DNA of 37,966 nucleotides, taken from NCBI GenBank assembly GCA_003576945.1, contig QEVC01000012.1, forward strand, positions 1 to 37,966, read 5' to 3'. Origin of the DNA: Candidatus Microgenomates bacterium. GTDB taxonomy: Bacteria > Patescibacteriota > Microgenomatia > UBA1400 > UBA12108. Under the pieces are notes generated by a model. It had not been told where the DNA came from. It saw only the letters and a program-made list of their open reading frames with translations, and did no database searches. The first letter of the stretch is position 1. Every line of letters starts with the position of its first letter. Both the position numbers and the translations under genes were made by a program. This document shows, piece by piece, positions 4,177-37,849 of the stretch.

Positions 4177-5349
4177 ATGGACGTTTACCAACAAGCAGTC
4201 GAATTTCACCGAAAGCACCAGGGTAAGTTGGGAGTCACACCGACTGTTTCAGTCAAGACGAGAGAGGATCTCTCACTGGTGTATACCCCAGGGGTAGCGC
4301 AAGTATGTAGAGAGGTAGCGACTAACCCGGAGGAGTCATTTAACCTCACCATGCGAGGGCGGAGTGTGGCAGTGATCTCGGACGGGTCGGCAGTTTTGGG
4401 CCTTGGCAATATTGGGGCAGTGGCCGCGATGCCGGTAATGGAGGGGAAGGCACTCTTATTTAAGCAGTTTGGGGGAGTGGATGCGGTACCGATCTGTGTG
4501 GACTTGCATACGGCGGATGAGCTAGTTGCTTTTGTGACAGCCATTGCACCGTCTTTTGGTGGGATTAACCTTGAGGATATTGCGGCACCAATATGTTTTG
4601 AGGTGGAGGATAGGTTGCAGAGTCTAGGGATACCGGTCGTGCACGACGACCAGCATGGGACGGCGATGGTAGTGACCGCGGCTCTAACTAACGCGACAAA
4701 GGTGGTCGGGAAAAAATTCGAAGACTTAACTGTTGTGATTTCGGGGGCAGGGGCGGCGGGACTAGCCATTGCACAGATGTTACTATCCCTCGATCGAGAG
4801 AATGGCAAGCTGGTGAAAGTTGAAGGGAAGAGGGTAAAAGAGGTAATAATCCTAGATAGTAAGGGGGTTATAACGGCGGATGGAAAGGGATTAAAAGCGG
4901 AGTTTGCCAAGATAACTAATCAGAGTGGGAGGAGTGGAGGACTAGCCGAAGCGATAGTGGGAGCTGATGCGTTTATTGGGGTGTCAAAAGGCGGGATAAT
5001 GACGCCGGAGATGGTTAAGAATATGGCCCAAGATGCGATAGTCCTCGGGATGGCGAACCCGAATCCCGAAATATTGCCTGAGGTGGCCAAGGCGGCAGGA
5101 GCCGCAGTGGTGGGGACAGGGAGGTCGGATTACCCGAACCAGGTTAATAATTCTTTGATCTTCCCTGGACTATTTAAGGGGCTACTAAAAGCGAGGATTA
5201 CTAAAGTGACACCAGCAATTAGACAGGCGGCCTCGGCGGCCTTAGCAAGGCTAGTGGAGCCGACAGCGGACAAGATACTACCCAATATGTTTGATCCCGG
5301 GATGGCCGAGGCAATAGCTGAGGAGGTGGTTAAACATAAGGTAGTTTGA
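4177..5349 (+). CDS. NAD(P)-dependent malic enzyme (short bacterial form)
   Basis: Malic enzyme oxidatively decarboxylates malate to pyruvate and CO2, making NAD(P)H. The 390-residue length fits the short archaeal/bacterial type without a phosphotransacetylase domain. Motifs seen are VYTPGVAQVC (catalytic Tyr), SDGSAVLGLGNIG, the catalytic Lys region MEGKALLFKQFGG, metal and substrate ligands in DDQHGTA, and the Rossmann segment VISGAGAAGLAIA. The Shine-Dalgarno GAAAGGA precedes ATG. Its 3' end overlaps by 20 bp the convergent vapC gene. With NADP specificity it could feed the thioredoxin system upstream, but I cannot read cofactor choice from the sequence with certainty. Confidence 0.93.
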   Translation: MDVYQQAVEFHRKHQGKLGVTPTVSVKTREDLSLVYTPGVAQVCREVATNPEESFNLTMRGRSVAVISDGSAVLGLGNIGAVAAMPVMEGKALLFKQFGGVDAVPICVDLHTADELVAFVTAIAPSFGGINLEDIAAPICFEVEDRLQSLGIPVVHDDQHGTAMVVTAALTNATKVVGKKFEDLTVVISGAGAAGLAIAQMLLSLDRENGKLVKVEGKRVKEVIILDSKGVITADGKGLKAEFAKITNQSGRSGGLAEAIVGADAFIGVSKGGIMTPEMVKNMAQDAIVLGMANPNPEILPEVAKAAGAAVVGTGRSDYPNQVNNSLIFPGLFKGLLKARITKVTPAIRQAASAALARLVEPTADKILPNMFDPGMAEAIAEEVVKHKVV

Positions 5350-5719
5350 GGATTTTGAGATTAGGGATACCTACAAAATCTTTGGTGTTAAGTGTAGCTA
5401 GGTGTGCACCATAGTGGATGGCAGTTGCGGCAATCGCGGCGTCGGCAAAGGAGGGGTGATAATCTCTCATAATTTTCCCAGCAATTTCTGCGACTTTTTG
5501 TGAGTACATGAGAATGTCGAGCTCTGATAAAGTTTGATTGAGCAAGGATAGTGGGGATTTGCGTAGAGTGCTGGCTCCAGAATATAGTTCTTGGATTGTA
5601 ATTGGAGATATCGAGAATGAGTCATCCAAGTGACTATTGATCAGACTAAATTGAACTGAATCTTGTCCTTTGAGTCTCAGGTGATCTATGATGATATTGG
5701 TATCTAGGATGATTACCAT
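5330..5719 (-). CDS. vapC: VapC-type PIN-domain ribonuclease toxin
   Basis: A 129-residue PIN-domain protein. The acidic catalytic set is present: D6 in ILDTNIIID, E44 in ITIQELYSG and D93 in SFADAAIAATA, with a further TLNTKDF motif. VapC toxins cleave RNA, usually tRNA or rRNA, and are held inactive by a cognate antitoxin. The start overlaps the end of the upstream antitoxin gene by 7 nt, typical of co-translated TA pairs. The end overlaps the malic enzyme gene by 20 bp in convergent orientation. Confidence 0.9.
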   Translation of the reverse strand: MVIILDTNIIIDHLRLKGQDSVQFSLINSHLDDSFSISPITIQELYSGASTLRKSPLSLLNQTLSELDILMYSQKVAEIAGKIMRDYHPSFADAAIAATAIHYGAHLATLNTKDFVGIPNLKILKLPYV

Positions 5720-6012
5720 GCTTTGCGGAGCTCTTTAGCTGCTTTTTGTTCAATTCTTCTCTGTCTCGCTTCTCTCTCTGGCCAGTCGTCACCTGCCCAT
5801 GCTCCCTGGGTAGACTTGAGAATTTTGAGATAGGCGAGGTTTTTGGCTCTTTGAGAGGTCTGAATGTCAGTGAAGGGTTCAAAAGTGATTTTTTGATCAG
5901 GAGTGACTGTAACAAAATATTGGACTGGATCCGTGATTCCAAGCGCTTTCCTGGCAAATCTAGGGATGACAACTTGATGTTTGGCGTTGCTGGTGGCGAT
6001 TGAGTTGAGCAT
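5713..6012 (-). CDS. vapB: VapB-type antitoxin with SpoVT-AbrB DNA-binding fold
   Basis: A 99-residue protein. The N-terminal 50 residues fit a swapped-hairpin AbrB domain (KHQVVIPRFARKALGI near 11-26), which binds DNA as a dimer. The C-terminal half is charged and helical (REARQRRIEQKAAKEL), the usual toxin-wrapping region. It is translated just before the PIN toxin. The ATG at 6012 lies nine bases after a -10 element, so the transcript is probably leaderless. A perfect 9-bp inverted repeat overlaps that -10 and is a natural autorepression operator. Confidence 0.85.
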   Translation of the reverse strand: MLNSIATSNAKHQVVIPRFARKALGITDPVQYFVTVTPDQKITFEPFTDIQTSQRAKNLAYLKILKSTQGAWAGDDWPEREARQRRIEQKAAKELRKAW

Positions 6013-21433: not shown

Positions 21434-22063
21434 ATGGAAAAACTGTTTGACCTACCTTACTTTACGTTGACAATGGTAATGCAGATGAAGGGTGCTTCGG
21501 TGCATAATGCGCGAGTGTGGTTGTCTCGACAAAATAAAGCAAATAAAGTAGTTAGATTAACTAATGGTGTATACATGAGTCGAGCGAAATATGACAGATA
21601 TCGTGATAACCCGGACTTTGTAGGGATGGTCGCCAACATAATCCAGCCGCACAGCTATTTGAGTGGGGAGTGGGTGCTGCAAAAGTATGGAGTAATGACA
21701 GAAGCAATATTTAATGTTACTTGTGTGACGACCAAACATACCAGAGAAATAGAGAACCCAGTAGGAAGGTTTATTTATACAAATATTACTGACAAATTAT
21801 TTGATGGATATAGTGAGAAGTTGATGGATGGAATAATGGTGCGAGAAGCTAGTGTAGCTAAAGCCCTATATGACCTGTTATACCTACGCAAGACTCCGAG
21901 TAGAATCAAAGAGGATATGTATTTTTTGAGTGAAGATCTGCGGCTTAATTTGACTCACCTCGACAAGAGTGTAAAACTCGAATTTGAAGAGTGGGTTAAC
22001 AAATATCAGAGTCCAAAAATGAAGTTAATTAGGGATAATTTGAGGAGGTCTGGATGGGAGTAG
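21434..22063 (+). CDS. AbiEi-type antitoxin / transcriptional regulator
   Basis: 209 residues. The N-terminal winged-helix part (KGASVHNARVWLSRQNKANKVVRLTNGVYMS) and the following domain with HSYLSGEWVLQKYG, then VREASVAKALYDLLYL, match the AbiEi antitoxin family of type IV toxin-antitoxin systems. There it represses the operon and counteracts a nucleotidyltransferase toxin. The end overlaps the toxin gene by 10 nt. A perfect inverted repeat lies upstream, as expected for autoregulation. Confidence 0.82.
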   Translation: MEKLFDLPYFTLTMVMQMKGASVHNARVWLSRQNKANKVVRLTNGVYMSRAKYDRYRDNPDFVGMVANIIQPHSYLSGEWVLQKYGVMTEAIFNVTCVTTKHTREIENPVGRFIYTNITDKLFDGYSEKLMDGIMVREASVAKALYDLLYLRKTPSRIKEDMYFLSEDLRLNLTHLDKSVKLEFEEWVNKYQSPKMKLIRDNLRRSGWE

Positions 22064-22893
22064 TCACGAGACAGATATTAAATGCTTTGAATGATCCGGA
22101 GTATGCGAATGCAAACATTGATGTGCGCCGAGTGGTGGCAAAAGATGTTTTGATTTCTTATGTTTTGAGCTTTATATACAACCGCAAAAAGTATGCAAGC
22201 TTAGTGTTTTATGGTGGAACATGCGCCAAGGTGGTGTATGGGCTGGACCGGTTCTCGGAAGATATCGATCTAGACAATAGCATGGGAGTGGGTGTTGCTA
22301 GTTTTGGGGATGAACTCGCGCAGTACTGCAAAAATAAAATGCAAATAGAGGGGGCAGATGTTTATGAGCAGAGTGGGGAGGGTGGGATCAGGCGATTTGT
22401 CCTGCGTGTGCCGATAATGAACGAAATCGGACTCTCGCCGAGGATGAGTGAAAAACTTCATGTTAAGGTAGAGATGAGCAACATGACAAAACATGCAACA
22501 GTGCAAAAAACGCCGCTCGTGCGGCACGGGCAGGCCATGGTGATACAGCATTTTGACCTGCCTAGCTTGATGGCAGGCAAGATGGTGGCGTGTCTTGAGA
22601 GAAATTGGCGAAAAGGTGAAGTTGCTGGGACAGATATTAAAGGAAGAGATTTTTATGATCTGATTTGGTATATGAATAAGGGAGTGAGACCAAATCCAGA
22701 AGTTCTAAAACATGGGGGAGAGCAGTCGTATACCCTAGATTCTACCTGGAAGTTACTAGAAAAAAAAGTTTTGAAGATCAATAAGAATGAGCTCAAGTTT
22801 GACTTGAAGTCTTTTGTGCCTAACGGAGTTTATCTAGACAACTGGCTAGACAATTTTCAGGACTACTTCTCTCGTTTGAGAAAGAGCGCTTAA
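22054..22893 (+). CDS. AbiEii-type nucleotidyltransferase toxin
   Basis: 279 residues. The polymerase-beta-like nucleotidyltransferase signature is clear: FYGGTCAKVVYGLDRFSEDIDLD, with Gly-Gly-Thr (54-56) and the metal-binding D70-x-D72. A later GRDFYDLIWYM segment is typical of the AbiEii/MenT group, which blocks growth by adding nucleotides to tRNA ends or similar targets. It starts inside the last codons of the antitoxin gene. Confidence 0.85.
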   Translation: MGVVTRQILNALNDPEYANANIDVRRVVAKDVLISYVLSFIYNRKKYASLVFYGGTCAKVVYGLDRFSEDIDLDNSMGVGVASFGDELAQYCKNKMQIEGADVYEQSGEGGIRRFVLRVPIMNEIGLSPRMSEKLHVKVEMSNMTKHATVQKTPLVRHGQAMVIQHFDLPSLMAGKMVACLERNWRKGEVAGTDIKGRDFYDLIWYMNKGVRPNPEVLKHGGEQSYTLDSTWKLLEKKVLKINKNELKFDLKSFVPNGVYLDNWLDNFQDYFSRLRKSA

Positions 22894-26738: not shown

Positions 26739-27206
26739 TTATTTAGTGTATTTACCCTTAACCTGGAAGAGGAAGTAGAAAGAGAATAATGCGGAGAATA
26801 GCATACTACCTAAGCCACCAGTAAAAAGGTTGTTAAATAGAGAAAGAAGGTTAGAGTAATAGACGAGCTTCCAGCTTCTTTTTTCGCGTTTGAACAACCC
26901 GGGTAGAGCCATGAGACTAAGGATCAGGCTGCCAAAAGCAAATACCATCCCGAGAATGAAGCTAAAACCACTCCCGATCCCGCCCAAGAAAGAGAAGGGA
27001 GTAATAATTGCTCCAAGGCCGAGACCTGCCACGATGACGGGGAGTAGAAGGAGCATCATAATGAGTGTTAAGTAGGGAGAGGCTTTGACGATAAACTCTT
27101 TAATATTATCTGGTAATGCTGGAAGGGAACCAACAAAGAACCCTTCCAATTTATTGCTTAAGTTATCAGCATGATCGGTTAATGTGGGTTGGGTTTGTTT
27201 AGTCAT
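26739..27206 (-). CDS. Four-helix membrane protein of unknown function
   Basis: 155 residues. A polar N-terminus with an amphipathic start is followed by four hydrophobic segments (about 44-70, 72-108 in two parts, 125-150), rich in Gly and Phe. The proportions resemble small conserved membrane proteins found in other bacteria and in CPR genomes, but I cannot name a family. It lies between tRNA-Ala and the surface-protein island on the same strand, so it may be the last gene of that cluster. Confidence 0.6.
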   Translation of the reverse strand: MTKQTQPTLTDHADNLSNKLEGFFVGSLPALPDNIKEFIVKASPYLTLIMMLLLLPVIVAGLGLGAIITPFSFLGGIGSGFSFILGMVFAFGSLILSLMALPGLFKREKRSWKLVYYSNLLSLFNNLFTGGLGSMLFSALFSFYFLFQVKGKYTK

Positions 27207-27258: not shown

Positions 27259-29208
27259 TTATTCTGTGGGAAGGTCTAGAGGACCACCATCTATTGGAGA
27301 GGGAAGTGGAGAAGGAGTAGAAAGTGAGTTATCTGGGAGTTGATTGTTTTCTGTCATGGGTATTGGAGTGGGTGATGGTAATGGTGTGGCGGGAGGATTT
27401 GAGTTGATAGGTTTAGCCTTAAGCGTTTCTAATTCGCTGACAACCTTTGAATAATCCGTACTTGTGACCTCTAGATATTTGAGGGTAGTTTCGAGGGCGA
27501 GGATGGCGCGAGGGTAGTCGCCTGTGTTCTCGTAGAGTTTGGCGAGGTTGTAGTAAGCGTTACCATAGTTGGGTCTAAGTTGGATGGCGGTTTGTATCTC
27601 AGTGATGGCGCGAGTACGTAGTGTCCCAGCGCTACTGGCATCTTTTTGGTTGTCGGCTAATTGTGAGAGCAGGGCGGCAAACTCTAAATGTAGGCTGGGG
27701 TTGGCACGATCTAAGGATAGAGCGCGACTAAAGGTCTCAAGAGCAAAATTTTCTGCCCCATCGGCCACGTTTACAAGATTTTGGTAAATCTTGGCAACAG
27801 TTAACCAAGTGCGACTATCATTGGGTCTTAGTTGGATAGCAGTTTTACCACTTTTAATGCTTTGTTGAATTAAGCGTGTGATTGTTGCGCGATCTGCGTC
27901 GGTTAAATCTGGTTTTTGAGAGAGTGAGCTAGCAAGGCGGAAGTTAACGTCAGCAAAACTGAGGTGGTAGTTGGTAATCTTGGGTGAGAATCTAAGAGTT
28001 TGCAAATGAAGATCGTAGACTTTTTGACTGTCTCCCGCATCGAGGGCGAGCTGTGCTTGTCGCATGATAATTTCACTGGCATAAGACCTAATAGGGCTTA
28101 TGCCAATTAAGAAAATGAGTCCAATAATCATCACGCTAACGGTTAGATGGTGGGGTGTGGGGAGAGTCAGTTCGGAATAGGTGTGTTTTAGACTAAGTGC
28201 GTAAAAGACAAAGAATAAAAGATAGAGAGGGAGTGAGCCGGGAAGGAAGAGGAGGGAGAGAGTGATGAGGATGGTAGCACTAAAGATGGGAGTTGAGTAA
28301 GTGCCAACGAGTGATTTTAACATGATAAAAAGTAGAGCGAGAGTGGTGGTAATACCAGCGGTGGGAAGGATGGTCAGGAGTTCACTGCTAGCAAATTGGG
28401 GGAGATAGTTCCAGAGGCTTGTAGTGTTAATAGCTAGTGGTTTGACGGAGGTGTAGAGGAGAGAATAATTACTTAAGCCAATGCCAAAGAGCAAGGAGCG
28501 CAGTGGCTTGAGCGCATCGAGTGCAATACTCCAGCTCGCAGCGTAGGGAAGGAGGCTGGGGGTTAAGGCGCCTCCAGGTAGCATAAGAGAAATGATGGCG
28601 ACGATTGAGATGGTACTAATAAATAGACTGCCGAAGTAGAAATATTTCTCTTTAACTGTTGCGTGTTTTAGGCGAGAGATCATTAAAGAGACAGAAGTAA
28701 GAATAAGAATCAGAGTAGTTAAGTAGTTCCCAGTTGGAGTAAAGTTAATGTTTTGCATATAGATGGGGAGGTAAGGGGACTTAGAAAGAATGGTAAGAGA
28801 GAGGAGGGAGTGGAGTGAAAGGATGACTCCTGAGGCAATTATTAAATTGATTAGCTTCTTGGAATATTCTGAAGTTAGCAAGGGAATTAGGATTGTCGTG
28901 AAAATACAAAGCGAAATCAAAATTGTGGCCTTACTACTTAGTGCCTCGGACCGTCCCTCTGGATTAAAAATGAGTGAGCCAATTAAGGTGAGGAAAAAAA
29001 GGATCAGGGGGAGTGATTGAGAGAAGCTGGGCAGATTTAACTGTTTGGTTTTAAAGGCCTTAATAGCAGTTAATAATAGGACCAAAAGCGTTGCCAGTGT
29101 TAATAAAAGCTCTTTGGGGGTAGAGAGAAAATTGGGGGTGAGGGTCCAGAATAGGAGTGGAGTAAGAAGGATAGTTAGGCTAGTAATAATACGCATGGAT
29201 TCGATCAT
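27259..29208 (-). CDS. O-antigen-ligase-like polytopic membrane protein with C-terminal TPR repeats
   Basis: 649 residues. About ten to twelve membrane helices (1-400) resemble the Wzy/WaaL/pilin-oligosaccharyltransferase family, including LFGIGLSNYSLLYTSVK and, 30 residues on, SSELLTILPTAGI, where the family usually has a conserved His followed by a similar Gly-containing pattern; here the His is Ser. TPR-like repeats follow (about 400-600; AIQLRPNYGNAYYNLAKLYENTGDYPRAI), then a Pro/Ser-rich tail. The family transfers glycans to lipid A, pilin or protein acceptors. The TPR tail and the neighbouring Thr/Pro-rich surface proteins hint at protein glycosylation. Leaderless: TATTAT (29220-29215) is six bases before the ATG. 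Confidence 0.7.
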   Translation of the reverse strand: MIESMRIITSLTILLTPLLFWTLTPNFLSTPKELLLTLATLLVLLLTAIKAFKTKQLNLPSFSQSLPLILFFLTLIGSLIFNPEGRSEALSSKATILISLCIFTTILIPLLTSEYSKKLINLIIASGVILSLHSLLSLTILSKSPYLPIYMQNINFTPTGNYLTTLILILTSVSLMISRLKHATVKEKYFYFGSLFISTISIVAIISLMLPGGALTPSLLPYAASWSIALDALKPLRSLLFGIGLSNYSLLYTSVKPLAINTTSLWNYLPQFASSELLTILPTAGITTTLALLFIMLKSLVGTYSTPIFSATILITLSLLFLPGSLPLYLLFFVFYALSLKHTYSELTLPTPHHLTVSVMIIGLIFLIGISPIRSYASEIIMRQAQLALDAGDSQKVYDLHLQTLRFSPKITNYHLSFADVNFRLASSLSQKPDLTDADRATITRLIQQSIKSGKTAIQLRPNDSRTWLTVAKIYQNLVNVADGAENFALETFSRALSLDRANPSLHLEFAALLSQLADNQKDASSAGTLRTRAITEIQTAIQLRPNYGNAYYNLAKLYENTGDYPRAILALETTLKYLEVTSTDYSKVVSELETLKAKPINSNPPATPLPSPTPIPMTENNQLPDNSLSTPSPLPSPIDGGPLDLPTE

Positions 29209-29259: not shown

Positions 29260-30632
29260 TTATCTAGTTATGGACTCAACGAGTTTGATAAATAACGCTC
29301 GCCAGCCTATAAAGATTTTGGCGATGAAGCTAGTGTTGTCTGAGACATCACTTGATTTGGGCTCAGTTGAGGGAGAGGCAAAGATGTCGGCGAGACTACC
29401 GGGACTACTGATTGGAGAGGAGGGGAGGAAAGAGGCGAGGGGAACGGGTGAGCTCTTGAGACTGGGGCTAGGGGTGGGACTGGGCGATTTTGGTTTAAAG
29501 ATATTGGAGACAGTCTGAGAGAAGGATTTTTTGGTTGGTGCTGGGGTGGGGGTAGGAGTAGGCGTAGAGGTGGGATGTTGTCGACACGACTAGTATCACT
29601 ACTAACCCCGTTGTCGAGGGCGGTGACGGTCCAGATATAGCTAGTGTTGGGAGTGATATCCAGATCGGTTTCGTTGCGGGTTGGAGAGCTAGATTGATCG
29701 CCGAGTTTGACTAGATAGCTATCGGCGCCGTTTACGCTATTCCAGCGCAAGGTGATGCGCCTGCCTTCGTTGTAGCAGTTGTATACGAGGTTGGTGGGAG
29801 CAGGGGGTTTGGAGACTGATGAAGTGCTTGAAGAAGGAGAGGGGGAGACATGGGAAGAACTGGGACTGGGAGAGACTGATGGCGAGGGAGACCGTTTACC
29901 TCCTGAATTACAATATCTGATAGGTGATTGACAGAGTTCAGATCTCTCGCACCCATTGGTGTAATGCACGCATGCGCCAGTAGCGTTATAGCAACTCCCG
30001 GCAGCTTGAGTACAGACTGATGGTGAGGGTGTGGAAGAAGGTGAAATGGAGGACGTGGGATTAGTAGTGTTAGCGATGTCAACAACTATGTTATTGATGG
30101 TTTTTAGCATATTTTGATTCTGATTGATTGTGGTTGCAATGCTGTTTGTGGTAAAAGCTAGGGAGGAAGTGCCAACACCAAGTGCCTTGAGAGTAAAACT
30201 AGCAACCTTGCCACTACCGATGAGTCCAGCGCTTCCCTGAAGTGGGATCCCTACCACAAAGTTAATTTTGCCGTTTTCGATGGTAGGTGCGATGATTGAG
30301 GTCGGAAAGGCAGGGTCAACGATAATGTCGGAGGGGAGTAAAAGTGCAGGGTCATAACTAAGTTCAACTTGAACGGCTGAAAGAGGATCGGTGGGAGAGT
30401 TGTAGTTGAGAGTGACAGTGGTTGTGGAGTTGGGGGTGAGATGAAGCGAGGCAGGGTCGAGCGAGAGGATGACGGAGCCACTACTATTTATTTCGGCGAT
30501 CTGAAGGGGCTGTGGGCGAAAGAGGTTGATTAGGGTGAGTGTGAGCGCAACGAGGATAACTGAGAGGAGGGCTAGGTAGATTTGCTTACTATGATTTTTT
30601 GGCTTTTTTGATCGAGAGATAGATTTACGCAT
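29260..30632 (-). CDS. Membrane-anchored cohesin-FN3 surface protein (frameshifted near 3' end)
   Basis: Start 30632 (MRKSISRSKK) follows TACAAT by six bases. Order: basic N-terminus, one membrane helix (about 18-38), a cohesin-like domain (about 50-190; VILSLDPASLHLTPNSTTTV, VQVELSYDPALLLP, GSGKVASFTLKALGVGTSSL), a Ser/Pro linker, a seven-Cys region (about 205-245), a second linker and an FN3 domain (APTNLVYNCYNEG to SYIWTVTALDNG). The frame then needs a one-base shift between about 29577 and 29589. The shifted frame continues TSTPTPTPTPAPTKK and ends in a hydrophobic segment IAKIFIGWRALFIKLVESITR with TAA at 29260. Without the shift, translation ends at 29307 in an unnatural tail. Cohesins bind dockerins; two dockerin proteins lie upstream in the same locus. 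Confidence 0.82.
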
Positions 30633-30638
30633 GATTTG

Positions 30639-30644
30639 ATTGTA
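30639..30644 (-). promoter_or_regulatory. -10 box of the cohesin gene
   Basis: TACAAT on the minus strand, six bases before the ATG at 30632, with no Shine-Dalgarno. Confidence 0.5.
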
Positions 30645-30676
30645 GCAAATATTAAATGTTGTGAATAGGACAATAG

Positions 30677-31285
30677 TTATAAGTGGATACAGGTTCCGAT
30701 TGACTGGCAAGGACTGGCGCCACCATCACAGTTGGGGTTGTCGGTATAGTATGGAGTACAGGTTTGAGTGAGGTGGTTAAAAGTGATACAATTGCTAATT
30801 GATGAGCAGTAGTAGTAGGTATGACCGGGTGGCAATGCTTTGGGGTTAGTCGAATTAGCTACGTTACTACTAGAGACAGAGTACTGGTAGGTGGTGTCTT
30901 CGATAGTAGTAGGGGGAATGGTGAAATTTGATGGGTCTTTGAGCACAGCGTAAAGGGTATACCACTCACAGCCAGTGTCGTCTGTAACGAGATGGTAGGG
31001 GAGACCGGTGTTGGGGTCGCAGGAGAGGGAATTAAGATATGGCTTGAGCTCGTCGCTCCCACAGTCCTCGGCATCGTCAAAATAAGTAGCTGGGGGGTAG
31101 CAGTTGTGGTCTGTATAGTAGTCTTCGAAGGCGATCTTGAGGCGATTGAGTTCGGATTTGATCCTGGCATCATCGGCTTTTTGACGATTACCTCTGACTG
31201 CGCCGAGGGCGATCATGACCAGGATGGCAAGGATCGCGACGGTGATTAAGAGCTCGGTGAGGGTAAAGCCACTCTTGTTTGCCAT
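30677..31285 (-). CDS. Type IV pilin-like (pseudopilin) protein with Cys-rich C-terminus
   Basis: 202 residues. It begins with a class III prepilin signal: short basic leader MANKSG cleaved before FTLTELL, Glu at mature position 5, then the long hydrophobic helix to about residue 29. The globular part resembles type II secretion G-type pseudopilins (KSELNRLKIAFEDYYTDHNCYPP, DPNTGLPYHLVTDDTGCEWYTLYAVL). The end is an added Cys-rich tail with nine cysteines (YYYCSSISNC to GTCIHL). Processing needs a prepilin peptidase, which is not in this window. It would assemble in a surface pilus or remain as a membrane-anchored protein. Confidence 0.88.
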   Translation of the reverse strand: MANKSGFTLTELLITVAILAILVMIALGAVRGNRQKADDARIKSELNRLKIAFEDYYTDHNCYPPATYFDDAEDCGSDELKPYLNSLSCDPNTGLPYHLVTDDTGCEWYTLYAVLKDPSNFTIPPTTIEDTTYQYSVSSSNVANSTNPKALPPGHTYYYCSSISNCITFNHLTQTCTPYYTDNPNCDGGASPCQSIGTCIHL

Positions 31286-31323
31286 AATTATCAGGACACG
31301 TCTAATCGAGTGATTGTATCTGA

Positions 31324-32007
31324 TTAACGGCTACGTAACTGGAGACAACTTCGGACACAACTAAAGAATTTATTGTTGCGGAGGCGGCACTCGCGATAGC
31401 AGGAGATAAAGCTACCACGATTCTGGTTGGGTGCCTCAAAGTTGGTAGTGGAGGTTGTGGGGCTGGGGACGATTGTGGTGGTTGTATCAGTGGTGGACTG
31501 ATCCTCGTTTTGGATATAGATAGGGGGCTTTGGAGTGCGGGTGGGTGAGGTGGGAGCTGGAGTGACCGTCGGGAGGGGGGAACGAGTCGTAGGTGGAGTA
31601 GGCGTGACAGTAGGAAGAAGGGAGCGAGTGGGGAAACTTGGCATAGGGGTGGGAGAAGTGGGACAGGTTTTGCCGCAGACGCTTTGAGCGTAAGCTAGGA
31701 GCTCTCTGTATGGAGTACACTGAGTATTATCTTTTGCCTTGGCCGCAACGTCATTATTACACGTAAAGACAACGTTTTTGAATGATCCTGGTTGACACTC
31801 GCCACTGAGTTCGAGTGACTGAATATTGGTGACACAACCAGAACCAGAGAAAACTGGCTGGGAAACTTCGGCAATGTGTGGTTGAGTACCCCGTACAAAT
31901 AAGGAGATAACAAGGAGTAATAGAATGACGATGATCGCGTAGGTAATGGGGTGAGAAAAGCGAGTATATTGGTTGTTTTTGCTTGACTTGAGTTTTGTTT
32001 TTGGCAT
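31324..32007 (-). CDS. Membrane-anchored Cys-rich surface protein with Thr/Pro linker
   Basis: 227 residues. A basic N-terminus and a membrane helix (about 22-43) precede a Cys-containing outside domain (GSGCVTNIQ to VCGKTCP). A Pro/Thr linker with two RS-LPTVTP units follows, then a C-terminal Cys-rich Arg-rich motif (CYRECRLRNNKFFSCVRSC). No known family. The linker unit RSPLPTVTP is shared with the protein encoded just upstream (32021-32692), so the two genes are related by duplication or exchange. GGAG lies about 14 nt before the ATG. Surface role inferred from topology and neighbours. Confidence 0.68.
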   Translation of the reverse strand: MPKTKLKSSKNNQYTRFSHPITYAIIVILLLLVISLFVRGTQPHIAEVSQPVFSGSGCVTNIQSLELSGECQPGSFKNVVFTCNNDVAAKAKDNTQCTPYRELLAYAQSVCGKTCPTSPTPMPSFPTRSLLPTVTPTPPTTRSPLPTVTPAPTSPTRTPKPPIYIQNEDQSTTDTTTTIVPSPTTSTTNFEAPNQNRGSFISCYRECRLRNNKFFSCVRSCLQLRSR

Positions 32008-32020
32008 AAGTCAATATCTC

Positions 32021-32692
32021 CTATTTTGCAAGACAGGCTTGAGTAGCTACGTCATAGGCGGTAGTATACTCAGTACAATTAGAGAGTTTAAGTCTAGGAG
32101 AAGAGTTGTTGTCACATAACACAGTGTAGTTTGAAAAAGCTAGGTCTCCTGCGCAGGGACCGGTAGCTGTTAGAGAACGGAGCATACCGCGATCGGGTGA
32201 GGGAATAAGGCTTGGCTTGGGGGTAGGGGTTGGATTTTGAGTGGGTAAGACGGCGTCATCGGTCGGACAGATGAGTCTAGCTGGCTGAGCACACATCCGA
32301 CCGGGTGCACAAGAGGGTTCAAGAGTATAGCAGCCGGATGGAGGAGATGTGGGTGTTGGGGTCACGGTTGGGAGAGGGGAGCGTGTAACGGTGGTTTGTG
32401 AAGTGGTGGTGACTGTCACGGGTGTGGCGACACAGACTTTGTATGGAGTGCATGCAGCTCCCTGTGGACAACGCACTGGGGTTATGATCTGGCAGCCGTT
32501 TACATCGGTACTCACGTTCCCTTGATTGGCGCTGATAGCGTAGGGAGTATCGTTGATGTAGTAGACCTCGGCTGGATATTGGATAAAGCGGAAGTAGCTC
32601 CAGACTCCAAGTCCAGCTATGACTATGGAGGCAAGTATTGAGTAGCGATAGCGAGTCAGAAAGCTAGGTTTAACAACTTTAAGTTTTGACAT
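32021..32692 (-). CDS. Membrane-anchored Cys-rich surface protein with Thr/Pro linker
   Basis: 223 residues. One membrane helix (about 18-36) is followed by a small domain with paired cysteines (GCQIITPVRCPQGAACTPYKVC), a linker TVTRSPLPTVTPTPTSP, a second Cys-rich block (GCYTLEPSCAPGRMCAQPARLIC), another Pro-rich linker and a C-terminal block with three cysteines. Spacing of Cys-Pro-x-Gly-x-x-Cys in two blocks suggests repeated small disulfide knots. I do not recognise a family. It lies 13 nt upstream of its relative. Confidence 0.68.
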   Translation of the reverse strand: MSKLKVVKPSFLTRYRYSILASIVIAGLGVWSYFRFIQYPAEVYYINDTPYAISANQGNVSTDVNGCQIITPVRCPQGAACTPYKVCVATPVTVTTTSQTTVTRSPLPTVTPTPTSPPSGCYTLEPSCAPGRMCAQPARLICPTDDAVLPTQNPTPTPKPSLIPSPDRGMLRSLTATGPCAGDLAFSNYTVLCDNNSSPRLKLSNCTEYTTAYDVATQACLAK

Positions 32693-32753
32693 ATGTTAAG
32701 CCAAATATATAGCTGTTTAATAATCCCTGTCAAGCTAATTGGGCTCGGCTGGA

Positions 32754-34949
32754 TCACAGACCAAAGGCATTACGTGTGAAGATGGCTGCCTCACTCCTAG
32801 TTATGGGTTTGTTGGGGCAGTACTCGGTGGTACTACAGCCAGATGTAATACCTTGATTTTTGAGAGCTTCGATCCAGGCTGCTTGAGGGTGAGAGGCAGG
32901 TATGTCGCTAAAGAGAGTACCGGTGGCAGTAGGAGGAATATACGAACCTCCATGTTTGGCTCTGAGGAGCATGATAGCAAACTGGGAGCGGGTAAGAGTG
33001 ATGGACGGACAGTAGCGGTCTTTGTCACATCCGCTAGTGATACCTGTAGTTTTGAGATATTCAACCCATGGGTAATAAGCAGAGGATGGATTAACGTCCG
33101 TAAAACTAGGACTTGTGGGACTGGGGGGGTTAAAATCACCCCCATACTTGCCACGTAAGAGAAAGTAGGCTACTTGGGCGCGAGTGACAGTGTCATTAGG
33201 ACAGAAACGATTGGGGTTGGTAGTGCAGCCGTTAATAATATTTTTTTGACGGAGGGCTTCGATGGCTGTATAGGCAGGGTGAGTGGTTGGGGTGTCTACA
33301 AAAAATGAAGCGGGAGCATTTGTAGTTCTACCTACTATCTCAATCTCGCTGAGGAGCGAGAGGTTGTTATTGTTATTAAAAGTTAGACGAAGATACTTAC
33401 AAGTTAAGTCTAGTTTTGATTTGGAGTTGCCGATTACCAGTTCACTATCCTCTTGTTTTGAGGGATGAGTGAGAACAACGGGACTCGACCAGTTAAAGTT
33501 GTTAGTTGAGCAAGTAACACTAATGGAGGAGGGGAAATGGGCGTTGACTGCGTTTTGGTGCAAGAAGTGGATTCCAATATCACTGATAAGGTGCTCGTCC
33601 GCGAGCGTTATTTCGAGACTACCGCTATTATTTAAGCCGACATACGCGGGGTCAGTGTGGTTGGTGGAGCTATCTCTTTTGGCGAGGCCGATACGTCGAT
33701 CAAACAGCTCGTTACCACTATCGGGATAGTTCTGGTGCAGAGAACCTAGCCATTTGTATGAAAGTGGGGTGATGAGTACGTCTTGAGATAAAGAAGGCAA
33801 GAAGAGTGCGCGATAGCTGCGGAGGGTTCGGTCTGTACCGTAGTAGCCGCGGGGATTGACTTCGGTGAGATGGTATTGGGCGATCCAGGCAATGCGTTTG
33901 CCCGCCACTGACGAGGGAGCGTTGTCGAGCTGGGCTTTGATTTTGGCGGCGGTTACTCCAGTATATCCACCACCTGCGAGGCCGCCTTTGGTAGCGATAC
34001 AACAGCTGCTTATCTCGATGTCGGCCCAGAGACTGTCTTTGCCGAGAGCAGTAGAGATAGCGTCGTAGTAATCTTTGGTTGAGTATTGTGACAAAGCGGA
34101 TTTGTAGACAGGGAAGCCAGTAGCGTTGACGGAGTCTTGCCAGAGCTGGATATTGACCCCTGTTTGCTGCTGAAAACTTAGAGCTCGCTGGGCTATTTGG
34201 GCTGGGGTGTAGTTTTGGTCTGAGAGATAGAAAGGTGGGGCAACGAGGATAGGTTTGGAGGATTTGGCGCGAATTGCCTCAACATATTGTTTCCAGTAGG
34301 AGTTGCCAACTGAGGGGTCTGGCCAACTGCCAAGATATGGTTCGTCGGGGATATACCACCCCGCAAACTTAGGGTGGTTGCCGTAAGTGTTCTGGATATA
34401 GGTGATGGGATTGTCGGGGTGTGAATAGTTTTTGAGGTAGGGGATGGTACTGTTGATATTTTCGGTGGAGTAAGTAGTGTTACAGACACTCCAAGTGCTG
34501 AGGAGGCCGGTATAGATAGTGATGTCATTTTTTTCGGCGTAGTCAAAGATAAGTTTTAGCTTCTCTTTGTATTGATTAACCCATTTAAAGTCGGTATCTT
34601 CGCAGGCAGATCCTGGCTTCTTGCGAGCGAGATCCATGATGATAAGAGTGTTAAAGTCGAGATTGTTAATTTCGTCGAGATAACGAGGGAGATTGGCAAG
34701 AGTGATACCCGAGTATGCGTCATTGTAAAGATCAACAAATGTGCCATCGAGTTTGTCTTGTGATTGAGACTGACCAATCCGGTTAATACTAGGGGTTTGA
34801 AGACTGAGATATTGGCGGGCAAGCAGGGCGACGAGGCCAAATACGAGGGCAAAGACTAAAGTAGTGAGAACGTATGCTTTGAGTGAACGCTGCGGTTTTG
34901 AAGCTACAACTCGTTTGGAACGCATGGATTTTTTTGGCATGTTGAGCAT
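32754..34949 (-). CDS. Membrane-anchored glycosidase-like TIM-barrel protein with three SLH domains
   Basis: 731 residues. A basic N-terminus and a membrane helix (about 24-44) are followed by a TIM-barrel-like domain (70-400) resembling the DUF4434/DUF5109 glycoside-hydrolase-related group: GWYIPDEPYLG places a putative acid/base Glu at 203, and LWADIEISS a putative nucleophile Glu at 312. A discoidin/F5-8C-like beta domain (about 400-540) ends in LSEIEIVGR. Three SLH repeats (about 550-731; FCPNDTVTRAQVAYFLLRG, YCPSITLTRSQFAIMLLRA, YCPNKPITRSEAAIFTRNA) close the protein; SLH domains usually bind pyruvylated cell-wall polymers or S-layer. Activity is inferred from the fold. An alternative start is ATG 34940. 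Confidence 0.82.
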   Translation of the reverse strand: MLNMPKKSMRSKRVVASKPQRSLKAYVLTTLVFALVFGLVALLARQYLSLQTPSINRIGQSQSQDKLDGTFVDLYNDAYSGITLANLPRYLDEINNLDFNTLIIMDLARKKPGSACEDTDFKWVNQYKEKLKLIFDYAEKNDITIYTGLLSTWSVCNTTYSTENINSTIPYLKNYSHPDNPITYIQNTYGNHPKFAGWYIPDEPYLGSWPDPSVGNSYWKQYVEAIRAKSSKPILVAPPFYLSDQNYTPAQIAQRALSFQQQTGVNIQLWQDSVNATGFPVYKSALSQYSTKDYYDAISTALGKDSLWADIEISSCCIATKGGLAGGGYTGVTAAKIKAQLDNAPSSVAGKRIAWIAQYHLTEVNPRGYYGTDRTLRSYRALFLPSLSQDVLITPLSYKWLGSLHQNYPDSGNELFDRRIGLAKRDSSTNHTDPAYVGLNNSGSLEITLADEHLISDIGIHFLHQNAVNAHFPSSISVTCSTNNFNWSSPVVLTHPSKQEDSELVIGNSKSKLDLTCKYLRLTFNNNNNLSLLSEIEIVGRTTNAPASFFVDTPTTHPAYTAIEALRQKNIINGCTTNPNRFCPNDTVTRAQVAYFLLRGKYGGDFNPPSPTSPSFTDVNPSSAYYPWVEYLKTTGITSGCDKDRYCPSITLTRSQFAIMLLRAKHGGSYIPPTATGTLFSDIPASHPQAAWIEALKNQGITSGCSTTEYCPNKPITRSEAAIFTRNAFGL

Positions 34950-35022
34950 CTACTTTAGTAGTGTACCAATGTTGCCTGTTTGTGTCAAAATTAGATATCA
35001 GAGCTATGAGGAGCTATGAGGA

Positions 35023-36381
35023 TTAGCGGTTGGTTTCGCCGAAATTTTGGAGGATCTCGTTAAAATCGAGGATGGTGTAGGGGTTGCCAAAGAATTGGAT
35101 GAGTCGGTTGAAGTCCAGCAGATTGATGACACCATTACCGTCTAAGTCGCCGGGGATCGGAGAAGGGCTGGGAAGTGTGCTAGGACTTGTTGAAGTGGGA
35201 GTTTGGGAAGATATGGTGTCTGTCATCACGTTTGAGCTATCTTGAATAGGTCCTTGGCGAAGGAGAGTGGAGAAGCCACTAAAGTGGTTACCTTCGATGC
35301 GATTGTTTTTACTCCGACAGTCGTGGGGGTAGTAGTAAGCGTGATCGGGGTTTGAGGTATCGTTGGCTTGAGGCATGAAATGACTGAAATTGCAAGGATA
35401 GGCCGTGACTGAATCAGGATGCGAGGTGATATTGACCCCTACGTCGGTACCTGAGATATTGTTGTTGCGGATGATGTTGTTGTCACCACCAAAGAATGAG
35501 ATCCCGACTGGGACTTCGGAGATATTGTTATTTTCGACGAGGTTATTGTCGGCTAGATCCCACTCAAAAAAGATGCCGATACAACGATAAGTGCTGCCAC
35601 GACGAGAGATAGTGTTGTTGCGGACCACGTTGTTGTTGCCCAATAAGTTGAGATGTTGGCAACCGTAGGTAGAGTTAAATTGGGTACTAACTTTGTAGAT
35701 TTCGTTGTCTGTAATTGTGTTTCCGTTGCCGTTAAACTGCATTCCTGATTCACGATAGAAGTTGTAGACTCGGTTATGGTGAACATTCCAGCGGTCGGCA
35801 CTGGTAGCGCCGTAGTCAACTTTGCGCTGAAAAATGGCATAGGCAACATTGATAAAATCTACCCCAGTTACTTCCCAATTGTCGCAGCGGTAGGCGACGA
35901 TTGCGGGAGAAATAGCGTCATTAACGCCGGTTAGAACTATGCCTTTGTTGCTAGTGGGACCATTGGGGATACTCTGGGCGGTAGTGAGACTTGTGCCCTT
36001 GATTGTGACGTAGTTAACGGAAGGATCACTTGCCAGACAGCGGATGGTGTAGTTGCCGCTAGTGCCCATACTGGGGTTGTGGAGGATAACCTGTTCGCCA
36101 GGATAGTTGGTTATAGTAATTGGTTGATTTTGAAGTCCAGAGTTGGTGAATCTCCACCCGGTGCGCGGGGCAGTGTAAGTACCACCCCTAACTATGACAG
36201 TGTCGCCAGCGCGTGCAGTAGAGAAGGCTTTGCTGAGATTCTGCCAGGGTTGGCCTTCGCTGCCTGAATTATTGTCGTTGCCTGATTGAGAGACATAATA
36301 GCTGGTAGCAGAAACAGGGAGGGTGAAATAAAGAGTTGCGACTATTAGAACCACTAGCCTTAGAATATGTTTAGTTATCAT
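35023..36381 (-). CDS. Secreted right-handed beta-helix protein with C-terminal dockerin
   Basis: 452 residues. A signal peptide (1-25, ending PVSA) precedes a parallel beta-helix: YYVSQSGNDNNSGSEGQPWQ, AGDTVIVRGGTY, then Asn-rich coils such as NNTISR, ENNNISEVPVGISFFGG and RNNNISGTDVG. This fold is shared by polysaccharide lyases, epimerases and DUF1565-type proteins; the catalytic residues are not certain. A Ser/Pro linker leads to a dockerin (411-452) starting GDLDGNGVINLLDFN with one complete calcium loop and a shortened second half (NPYTILDFNEIL). The start overlaps by 11 nt the end of the upstream dockerin gene, so the two are co-translated. Confidence 0.87.
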   Translation of the reverse strand: MITKHILRLVVLIVATLYFTLPVSATSYYVSQSGNDNNSGSEGQPWQNLSKAFSTARAGDTVIVRGGTYTAPRTGWRFTNSGLQNQPITITNYPGEQVILHNPSMGTSGNYTIRCLASDPSVNYVTIKGTSLTTAQSIPNGPTSNKGIVLTGVNDAISPAIVAYRCDNWEVTGVDFINVAYAIFQRKVDYGATSADRWNVHHNRVYNFYRESGMQFNGNGNTITDNEIYKVSTQFNSTYGCQHLNLLGNNNVVRNNTISRRGSTYRCIGIFFEWDLADNNLVENNNISEVPVGISFFGGDNNIIRNNNISGTDVGVNITSHPDSVTAYPCNFSHFMPQANDTSNPDHAYYYPHDCRSKNNRIEGNHFSGFSTLLRQGPIQDSSNVMTDTISSQTPTSTSPSTLPSPSPIPGDLDGNGVINLLDFNRLIQFFGNPYTILDFNEILQNFGETNR

Positions 36382-37849
36382 AGTTTTTTATTATGGCGTT
36401 AAAATCGAAGATTGTATAGGGATTGCCATACTTGGATACCAACAGGTTGAAATCAAAAATGTCCACCCGGCCATCGACATTCAGATCGCCGGGCTTTACT
36501 GATAGCGGACAGCTGAATTGCTCTACAGCTGGGTCGCTTATTGCACCTGAGCTTTCCCGCGTATGTATCCACCAGTTGTATGGTTGACCAGGCAGAATAG
36601 TGGCCTGATATGATGTGGCTGTTAGTGCTTCGATTGCTAGATCGGTCGATTCCGGACAGAGCCAGCCGTACTGGCAGCTTGTCAGGTTGTTATTCAGCTC
36701 ATCGAGACGGAATGCGTAGGAAGATGCAGAGGCGCTGCTATTCCACGAGAGAATTGCTTGCGTGCCGTTATTGACACAGGTAAATTGTAGATTGGTCGGT
36801 GGGGGGACAGGATTATAGTCATCTCCGTAATAGATATAATCGGGAGCGATAGTGGAAAAATGCCGAAAAGTTACCCCGTCTGCCCTGAATGTATCCCGTC
36901 TTGTCATTTGCCATTGCATTACTGAGCGGATATTGAGACCAGTGTTTCGTATTGTATGGATTTCGTTCCATGCTTGTTGGTCGGAAAAGTACGTTTCCTG
37001 AATAAGAATTGGCGTGTTTCCTTCGCCGCTTGCTTTCATTTCGTTATAGAGCTTCTCCAGTTGCGAGACAAGATTGGTATTGAATATATCGTATATATCA
37101 ATAGCATGCTGAGTTGGTCGTTTACCGACTGAATCATAAACTTCAATGAGTTTGGTAAACCTTCCTGGTGCCCAGGCTATGGAAAACCCGTAGGTGTCGA
37201 CAACACCAAAGGCGTCGGTATAGTCTTTCCACAATCGCTTGAGGTAATTCGAGTTCATGCCGTTGGTTTGCCCTGCTTGTTCAGCGGCAAGGTCAAACAC
37301 GACCGCGACATGAGATCCAGAAAGAGTGGATTTGACGAGGTTTCTTGTAAACCAGATAAACTCTTTGTTCTCGAGGTACTGCGCTTCGTCCCAGGCTGTC
37401 CATCCAAGTGGATGCGCTGGCCCCATCGGCGCGAAGCGGAACTGAACTTCGTTAAAACATGGCTGGTTTGCGCTATTTTTTTGGTTTTTTATGAACGTTA
37501 AGACAGTGGTGATATTGTTTTGCACCTTCGGGGTGGGTTTGCCGGTTGAGGAATCTGCCCAGTCGGAATCATATGTTTGAGGAATAAACCAAAGCATAAG
37601 GCCGATCTTTTTTTGACCACTCTCACATAGCGCCGCGATTTGTTGGGATACTAGGATTGGGTTTTGGTCAGACTGCGTCAATACGTATTTGAGACTGTTC
37701 CAGTTGTCCTCTGTGGGGTTGGTGCCGTATGCACCCAAATCAAAGACTGAATAATTCGTGCCACCGGTTTCGAGCGTCACCGCATATACAGGATGAGTCA
37801 GACATGAAAGTATCAGTCCAAGAAGCATGACCACTATTATGCGTATCAT
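36371..37849 (-). CDS. Secreted TIM-barrel-like glycosidase candidate with FN3 and dockerin domains
   Basis: 492 residues. Signal peptide (1-23, ending PVYA). Residues 30-345 look like a beta/alpha-barrel of glycoside-hydrolase type (KKIGLMLWFIPQTY, VQFRFAPMGPAHPLGW, GFSIAWAPGRF), with ILIQETYF placing a putative nucleophile Glu at 285; no family is assigned with certainty. An FN3-like domain follows (about 350-445; PPTNLQFTCVNNG), with the same Cys context as the FN3 of the cohesin protein. The C-terminal dockerin (454-492) reads GDLNVDGRVDIFDFN and then the short half NPYTIFDFNAII. First gene of the island; its own -10 lies six bases before the ATG. Confidence 0.82.
   Translation of the reverse strand: MIRIIVVMLLGLILSCLTHPVYAVTLETGGTNYSVFDLGAYGTNPTEDNWNSLKYVLTQSDQNPILVSQQIAALCESGQKKIGLMLWFIPQTYDSDWADSSTGKPTPKVQNNITTVLTFIKNQKNSANQPCFNEVQFRFAPMGPAHPLGWTAWDEAQYLENKEFIWFTRNLVKSTLSGSHVAVVFDLAAEQAGQTNGMNSNYLKRLWKDYTDAFGVVDTYGFSIAWAPGRFTKLIEVYDSVGKRPTQHAIDIYDIFNTNLVSQLEKLYNEMKASGEGNTPILIQETYFSDQQAWNEIHTIRNTGLNIRSVMQWQMTRRDTFRADGVTFRHFSTIAPDYIYYGDDYNPVPPPTNLQFTCVNNGTQAILSWNSSASASSYAFRLDELNNNLTSCQYGWLCPESTDLAIEALTATSYQATILPGQPYNWWIHTRESSGAISDPAVEQFSCPLSVKPGDLNVDGRVDIFDFNLLVSKYGNPYTIFDFNAIIKNYDN

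Follow-up and report, generated by a model that had tools for sequence, protein, structure and literature searches.

The window analysed here, 37,966 nucleotides from a Candidatus Microgenomates bacterium, corresponds to a complete contig (C8) in an 825-kb draft genome (33 contigs, 98% complete) and carries a locus in which a membrane-anchored protein with a single cohesin domain, here termed the scaffold, is encoded close to secreted proteins ending in shortened dockerins (mini-dockerins). The locus is probably a minimal, non-cellulosomal cohesin-dockerin display system. One point of comparison is the clostridial and ruminococcal cellulosome (type I and II), with which it shares the cohesin fold, recognised by both profile and fold search, C-terminal dockerins on predicted secreted, putatively carbohydrate-active proteins, and SLH proteins nearby. 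Unlike the cellulosome, however, the genome holds one cohesin rather than arrays, so that the several cohesins which define a scaffoldin are absent; the scaffold has an N-terminal transmembrane (TM) anchor and gave no match to a carbohydrate-binding module in the family searches, and the dockerin is without its second calcium loop.

Non-cellulosomal cohesin-dockerin pairs are known in archaea (PMC9012536), and single cohesins in organisms without cellulosomes, with a role (putative in the window) in linking surface or secreted proteins, are common to the window and to the systems of Archaeoglobus (2xdh), Clostridium perfringens (2jh2, 2vo8) and anaerobic methanotrophic (ANME) archaea (PMC9012536), while the window type differs in being a conserved locus with several types of cargo and a distinct mini-dockerin. 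Single-loop modules have a precedent in the group 2 dockerins of Ruminococcus flavefaciens FD-1, in which only the first calcium repeat was recognised and for which a single-binding mode was proposed (PMC2930009). These too are C-terminal, whereas the window modules retain a conserved, loop-less second helix and have the gene of the putative partner cohesin adjacent.

Within the candidate phyla radiation (CPR), SEML1_0315 of a Saccharibacteria epibiont is an essential dockerin-domain protein with a proposed role towards host glycans (PMC10633639); it belongs to another lineage and was reported with no mention of a cohesin. Closer to the present case, a member of Candidatus Shapirobacterales (Microgenomates) expresses cohesins and a dockerin, which the available part of the report reads as a possible cellulosome, citing an earlier report on Roizmanbacterium (PMC9123182). 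The window genome, judged by its ribosomal-protein losses, falls in the same broad CPR group, and both combine cohesins with dockerins; what that part of the report gives is annotation, whereas locus anatomy, the mini-dockerin and a linkage analysis are given here for the window type. Cohesins and dockerins have already been reported in Microgenomates, while the literature searched contained no earlier account of the mini-dockerin or this locus type, which appear to be a hitherto undescribed form of a known kind of system.

The membrane-anchored cohesin

The scaffold consists of a basic N-terminus, a TM helix at residues 20-38 (hydropathy), a cohesin at residues ~40-190, a Ser/Pro linker with Cys and a fibronectin-like segment, the latter assigned by eye and having no Pfam match. 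Since a basic stretch is followed by a single TM helix, the cohesin domain should face outwards. A cohesin had been anticipated at residues 50-190 by a preceding, sequence-only reading of the window, and PF00963 indeed matches residues 67-181 (E 6.1e-7, 30.2 bits against a cut-off of 24.1, profile positions 12-134 of 139), its single match in the 825-kb genome. Against a family cohesin profile built from nine such domains of relatives (alignment A3) the domain scores 184 bits, and the profile itself finds solved cohesins in the PDB (6kgc, E 8e-6, profile positions 20-149; 1zv9, 2.6e-4; 2xdh, 4e-4) which derive from cellulosomal scaffoldins and Archaeoglobus, the source organisms being taken partly from entry titles. 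A single-sequence AlphaFold model is all-beta at low confidence (pLDDT 54), and Foldseek ranks the cohesins 6kgd, 2vn5, 1g1k, 2jh2 and 2xdh at the top (probability 0.93-0.99, best E only 0.013); models of such low confidence serve as corroboration only. A contig scan with the scaffold protein returned only two loci, both matching the linker or fibronectin-like part and neither carrying a cohesin.

The membrane-anchored protein had been drawn as one open frame over 29260-30632, which needs correction, as this frame is closed at 29307 while the conserved C-terminal tail sits in another one. Genomes are designated G000 (own genome), G079 (same genus), G080, G081, G082 and G078 (same family), G036 (another family of the same order) and G094 (another order). 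With the G079 scaffold as query, tblastn recovers the displaced tail at 50% identity over 108 residues (E 1e-33), the tail reading FIAKIFIGWRALFIKLVESITR in the window, FFSKILLGWQALFIRFIETLTN in G079 and LFQKIYLGWQAIFTQIAKLIFH in G080. The stop and the displaced tail together imply a one-base frameshift near 29575 relative to the relatives, lying in the proline-threonine linker of the scaffold, which may be either an assembly error or real.

Mini-dockerins and their cargo

The two proteins with signal-peptide-like N-termini encoded upstream had been read as ending in dockerins. Their C-terminal modules are real and conserved, with the consensus PGDL(N/D)xxGxxxxxDFNxLxxxxGNPYTIxDFNxIxxN, however they are non-standard, having a single calcium loop, and the genome contains three such proteins rather than two, the third copy (G000:C4 25129-25251) ending a DUF4832/DUF4874 protein. 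PF00404 aligns with only the first 21-23 of its 57 positions in the two window modules (E 0.029 and 0.2; 12-15 bits against a cut-off of 22.9), and they fall under this cut-off because they are mini-dockerins of ~41 residues; a family mini-dockerin profile finds conservation over 41 positions at 71-87 bits. Twenty aligned copies (A2) show one complete calcium loop (DxNxDGxVN) followed by a helix (IFDxNxLIxxFG), a brief linker (NPYT, TTYN or the like) and a repeat of the helix (IFDxNxLIxNYG) that lacks a calcium loop of its own; of the two calcium-binding F-hand repeats of a type I dockerin, only the first loop is present. The profile finds dockerins in the PDB via the first loop (2y3n), and an AlphaFold model places the loop before two helices at low confidence (pLDDT 57). 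In a broader sense the modules are, by sequence, dockerin-like, as they lie at the end of predicted secreted proteins, have a first loop related to that of dockerins, are conserved and are linked to cohesins. A search of a viral collection with the mini-dockerin profile gave no confirmed relative.

The two halves of the module resemble each other. Directly ahead of the conserved Asn stands F or Y, with both halves having the same one of the two in 19 of 20 modules and the choice differing between lineages, and the likeness of one half to the other is 7.4 of 14 within the same protein or genome against 5.3 of 14 across genomes. This would fit recognition of one partner by both halves, and amounts to only few independent changes. 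As to origin, G094 holds a two-loop relative (GKTGTAGFIAADIDKNGKVDIFDYNILVEEFGK) and a mini form less than 4 kb apart; there, a cohesin protein bears the two-loop form (...RDVDIYDYNLLVTDFGKTGTAGFIAADIDKNGKVDIFDYNILVEEFGK) ~2.3 kb from a mini form (GDLNSDGKVDIFDYNILVENFGNPYTIFDYNTLVERFGT), a neighbourhood which suggests that the mini form may have arisen when the second loop was deleted. Additional short dockerin ends in which the linker differs (e.g. GDLNGDGQVNIADLQALLSSFTNIFNYNLVVANFGK) were observed, several of them in one operon, at L110:3-9148 (G145), L107 and L108 (G090) and L109:6264-7382 (G114), suggesting that the second loop may have been lost more widely in the class than the strict profile indicates.

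The proteins carrying these modules vary. Cargo 1 matches the parallel beta-helix repeat TIGR03804 over cut-off, with weak matches to PelN, NosD and Pel9A, and finds a rhamnogalacturonan lyase in the PDB (E 2.9e-4). Cargo 2 has no family match and its PDB search returned no useful one; a homologue with the same mini-dockerin (39% identity over 340 residues) lies in the cohesin cluster of G036. In relatives the cargo comprises GH5 cellulase-like, GHL15, GH39, beta-helix and F5/8C lectin-like proteins (the last just below cut-off) as well as a flavin adenine dinucleotide (FAD) oxidoreductase. The latter, secreted and FAD-dependent (G079, L068:1349-3715), has SLH-like repeats together with a mini-dockerin in a single polypeptide and is an unusual cargo for a cohesin system. 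Most of the predicted cargo, though not all, fits work on glycans.

Linkage in related genomes

In an order-level set of 88 genomes, with a threshold of at least 46 bits, strong full-length mini-dockerins occur in six (G000, G079, G080, G081, G082 and G036) and, beyond this order, in G094. A TM-cohesin gene lies beside the mini-dockerin genes, or at most ~5 kb away, in all seven, so the survey of relatives that the sequence-only reading had proposed came out in its favour: those which keep mini-dockerins always keep a cohesin, usually next door. In G079 a TM-cohesin-mini-dockerin fusion is followed by a TM-cohesin scaffold, while G080 has two mini-dockerin proteins, a TM-cohesin/mini-dockerin fusion and a scaffold. 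The order in G081 is nearly that of the window, with two mini-dockerin proteins, two TM-cohesins, pilin, TPR protein and small membrane protein. A mini-dockerin protein precedes a TM-cohesin in G082, as do two in G036, where a second cluster has a TM cohesin-like protein, and in G094 a GH39-like mini-dockerin protein is followed by three cohesin genes. Neither mini-dockerin nor cohesin was detected in G078, the remaining family member.

By PF00963 alone, G081 appeared to hold dockerins without a cohesin. This candidate exception was rejected, as Pfam had missed the two TM-cohesins at its locus, which align along their length with the other cohesins. PF00963 alone, which is independent of the custom profile, finds a cohesin in 5 of the 6 mini-dockerin genomes and in 22 of the 82 others (Fisher p 0.0096, uncorrected for relatedness). 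G079 (L066:3127-4995) and G080 (L070:3501-5120) additionally have a second, different pair, in which a polytopic membrane cohesin adjoins a protein whose end is Cys-containing and dockerin-like (CDLNRDTRCDLIDLSILLYYFER, CDINGDKSCDIIDLSLLLYYIER), which suggests that separate cohesin-dockerin specificities may exist in one cell; PF00963 finds no second such cohesin in the own genome.

Across the class, 250 of 374 genomes have Dockerin_1 over cut-off and 270 match the family cohesin profile at 1e-3, with the mini-dockerin profile at 1e-9 matching only 7, some merely via the first loop or divergent short forms. Among the top matches listed, and taking the genomes common to both lists, 13 of 35 dockerins have a cohesin match no more than 3 kb away, where placement at random over 1.05 Mb would give 0.31; as the lists are cut short and the genomes related, a p value from them is only a guide. 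No further mini-dockerin genome came from a sample of 287 phylum members.

Neighbouring genes and genome

The genes under discussion belong to a minus-strand run between 26.7 and 37.9 kb, towards the right end of the window (Table 1), in the 5'-3' order cargo 2, cargo 1, DUF4434-SLH protein, two TM-anchored Cys-containing proteins, pilin-like protein, cohesin protein, TPR protein and small membrane protein. As the window is a whole contig, the run may extend beyond 37966. The SLH-bearing protein and the pilin expected on this strand both gained profile matches, the former belonging to DUF4434 and having no dockerin. The pilin-like gene is a conserved neighbour of cohesin/dockerin genes in five family members (homologues in G079-G082 43-47% identical), and homologues of the TPR protein (38-50% identical) stand beside the cohesin/dockerin loci of G079, G081 and G082. 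Between the pilin and SLH genes, the two Cys-containing TM proteins (31324-32692, minus strand) have proline-threonine linkers, and their Cys-rich end is, by eye, like that of a G081 cohesin protein (L071:3362-4243).

Table 1. Features of the minus-strand gene run in the window.
Feature	Position	Strand	Evidence
Secreted cargo 2, signal-peptide-like N-terminus, C-terminal mini-dockerin ~36374-36496	36371..37849	-	profile 86.7 bits
Secreted cargo 1, right-handed beta-helix / pectate-lyase-like, mini-dockerin 35035-35157	35023..36381	-	profile 78 bits
TM-anchored DUF4434 protein, three C-terminal SLH domains, discoidin-like segment by eye	32754..34949	-	DUF4434 E 4e-19; SLH x3 E 1.7e-18
TM-anchored Cys-containing protein 2	32021..32692	-	hydropathy; no family match
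TM-anchored Cys-rich protein 1	31324..32007	-	hydropathy; no accepted family match
Type IV pilin-like protein	30677..31285	-	N_methyl (N-methylation signal) E 2.8e-7
Membrane-anchored single-cohesin scaffold, open part of frame	29307..30632	-	PF00963, family profile, hydropathy
Conserved scaffold C-terminal tail (proline/threonine-rich linker and hydrophobic/amphipathic segment), other frame	29260..29574	-	tblastn, translations
Polytopic TPR-repeat membrane protein, by eye resembling an O-antigen ligase	27259..29208	-	TPR matches
Small membrane protein	26739..27206	-	54% identity in syntenic position, G081

The genome as a whole is CPR-like, as had been supposed, with 0.83 Mb at 98% completeness and neither ribosomal protein L30 nor L9 detected, whereas among 14 control genomes the same searches were positive for L30 in 13 and for L9 in 10. 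Joint loss of L30 and L9 is typical for the Microgenomates branch of the CPR. Elsewhere in the window, an AbiEi/AbiEii-like pair (regulator plus nucleotidyltransferase; 21434-22893, plus strand) and a PIN-domain toxin with an AbrB-like antitoxin (5330-6012, minus strand) were recognised by eye.

Interpretation and alternatives

At the level of predicted proteins, the genome encodes one TM-anchored single-cohesin protein and three secreted proteins with shortened dockerins, and both kinds of gene are conserved together. The one-to-one capture of secreted, putatively glycan-active cargo by a single membrane cohesin, as the sequence-only reading had it, is the best-supported reading of this arrangement. 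The cohesin would bind the mini-dockerins, probably with one calcium ion, and each scaffold would retain one cargo molecule, beta-helix/lyase-like or glycosidase-like, outside the membrane and under or within the S-layer. Since there is one cohesin in the genome, neither a large complex nor a chain can form. With one calcium site, folding should depend on calcium. The recognition helix occurs twice in nearly the same form, which suggests that the mini-dockerin could present either of its halves to the cohesin. Cutting or binding of glycans is the most likely activity of the cargo, be they those of the environment, of a host cell or of the cell's own coat, and the host-surface activity earlier ascribed to it may be one such role.

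Several points weigh against this account. A dockerin that has lost its second calcium loop could bind less tightly, and the frameshift alters the C-terminus of the scaffold in the own strain or assembly, the cohesin itself lying upstream of the break. Furthermore, the custom cohesin profile was built partly from genes picked for their adjoining mini-dockerins, the clustering tests rest on top-match lists from related genomes with phylogeny ignored, and the enzyme roles of most cargo are predicted.

Among the alternatives, the one that survives best, though unlikely, is that the cohesin-dockerin contact joins surface proteins to each other, in S-layer or pilus architecture or in chains of fusion proteins, instead of displaying enzymes. 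The SLH, pilin and Cys-rich TM proteins in linkage would suit such a role, as would the SLH repeats on one relative's mini-dockerin protein and the cohesin-dockerin fusions of G079 and G080, whereas most cargo resembles carbohydrate-active enzymes and the single cohesin of the own genome excludes chain formation there. It is less probable still, and rather improbable overall, that the mini-dockerins have ceased to bind cohesin, either as mere remnants or as C-terminal caps that lend stability (EF-hand-like calcium modules), the cohesin-like domain being only an Ig-like stalk. The missing second loop and the PF00404 scores below cut-off would be explained in this way, and the single-loop group 2 dockerins of R. 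flavefaciens have been called possibly partial and non-functional (PMC2930009); however, the 41-residue form is conserved in seven genomes, in its sequence as well as its length, and sits on cargo proteins that are unrelated, its second half retains recognition-like residues with the F/Y switch in step between halves, and it is consistently linked to cohesin genes. That the mini-dockerin proteins dock on a cohesin of a host or neighbour, the window cohesin having another ligand, is very improbable, for although the signal-peptide-like cargo N-termini and a CPR-type, hence possibly episymbiotic, genome would allow it, the linkage within one locus and the TM-cohesin/mini-dockerin fusions of relatives make a private partner simpler.

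Beyond display by a single membrane cohesin, a wider proposal is tentative, and we would put it at somewhat below even. The mini-dockerin may represent a dockerin class of its own, a plug of 41 residues with one calcium site and two faces, produced by deletion of the second calcium loop. It would serve a surface code used throughout this CPR class, with separate pairs in one genome, as the second pair of G079 and G080 would exemplify, and would keep interchangeable glycan-active proteins on cells of very small size, perhaps for attachment to host cells or feeding on them.

Biological significance

Short natural dockerins of this kind could serve as protein tags, and the spread of cohesins and dockerins across the class (270 and 250 of 374 genomes), combined with the clustering of their genes, means that recombinant modules could put the partner code of these bacteria to a direct test. 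If the display system is as proposed, the assembly principle of the cellulosome would work in its smallest form, a single membrane cohesin plus a dockerin of half the usual size with one calcium site, in bacteria of very reduced genome, and would bear on how these handle host or environmental glycans.

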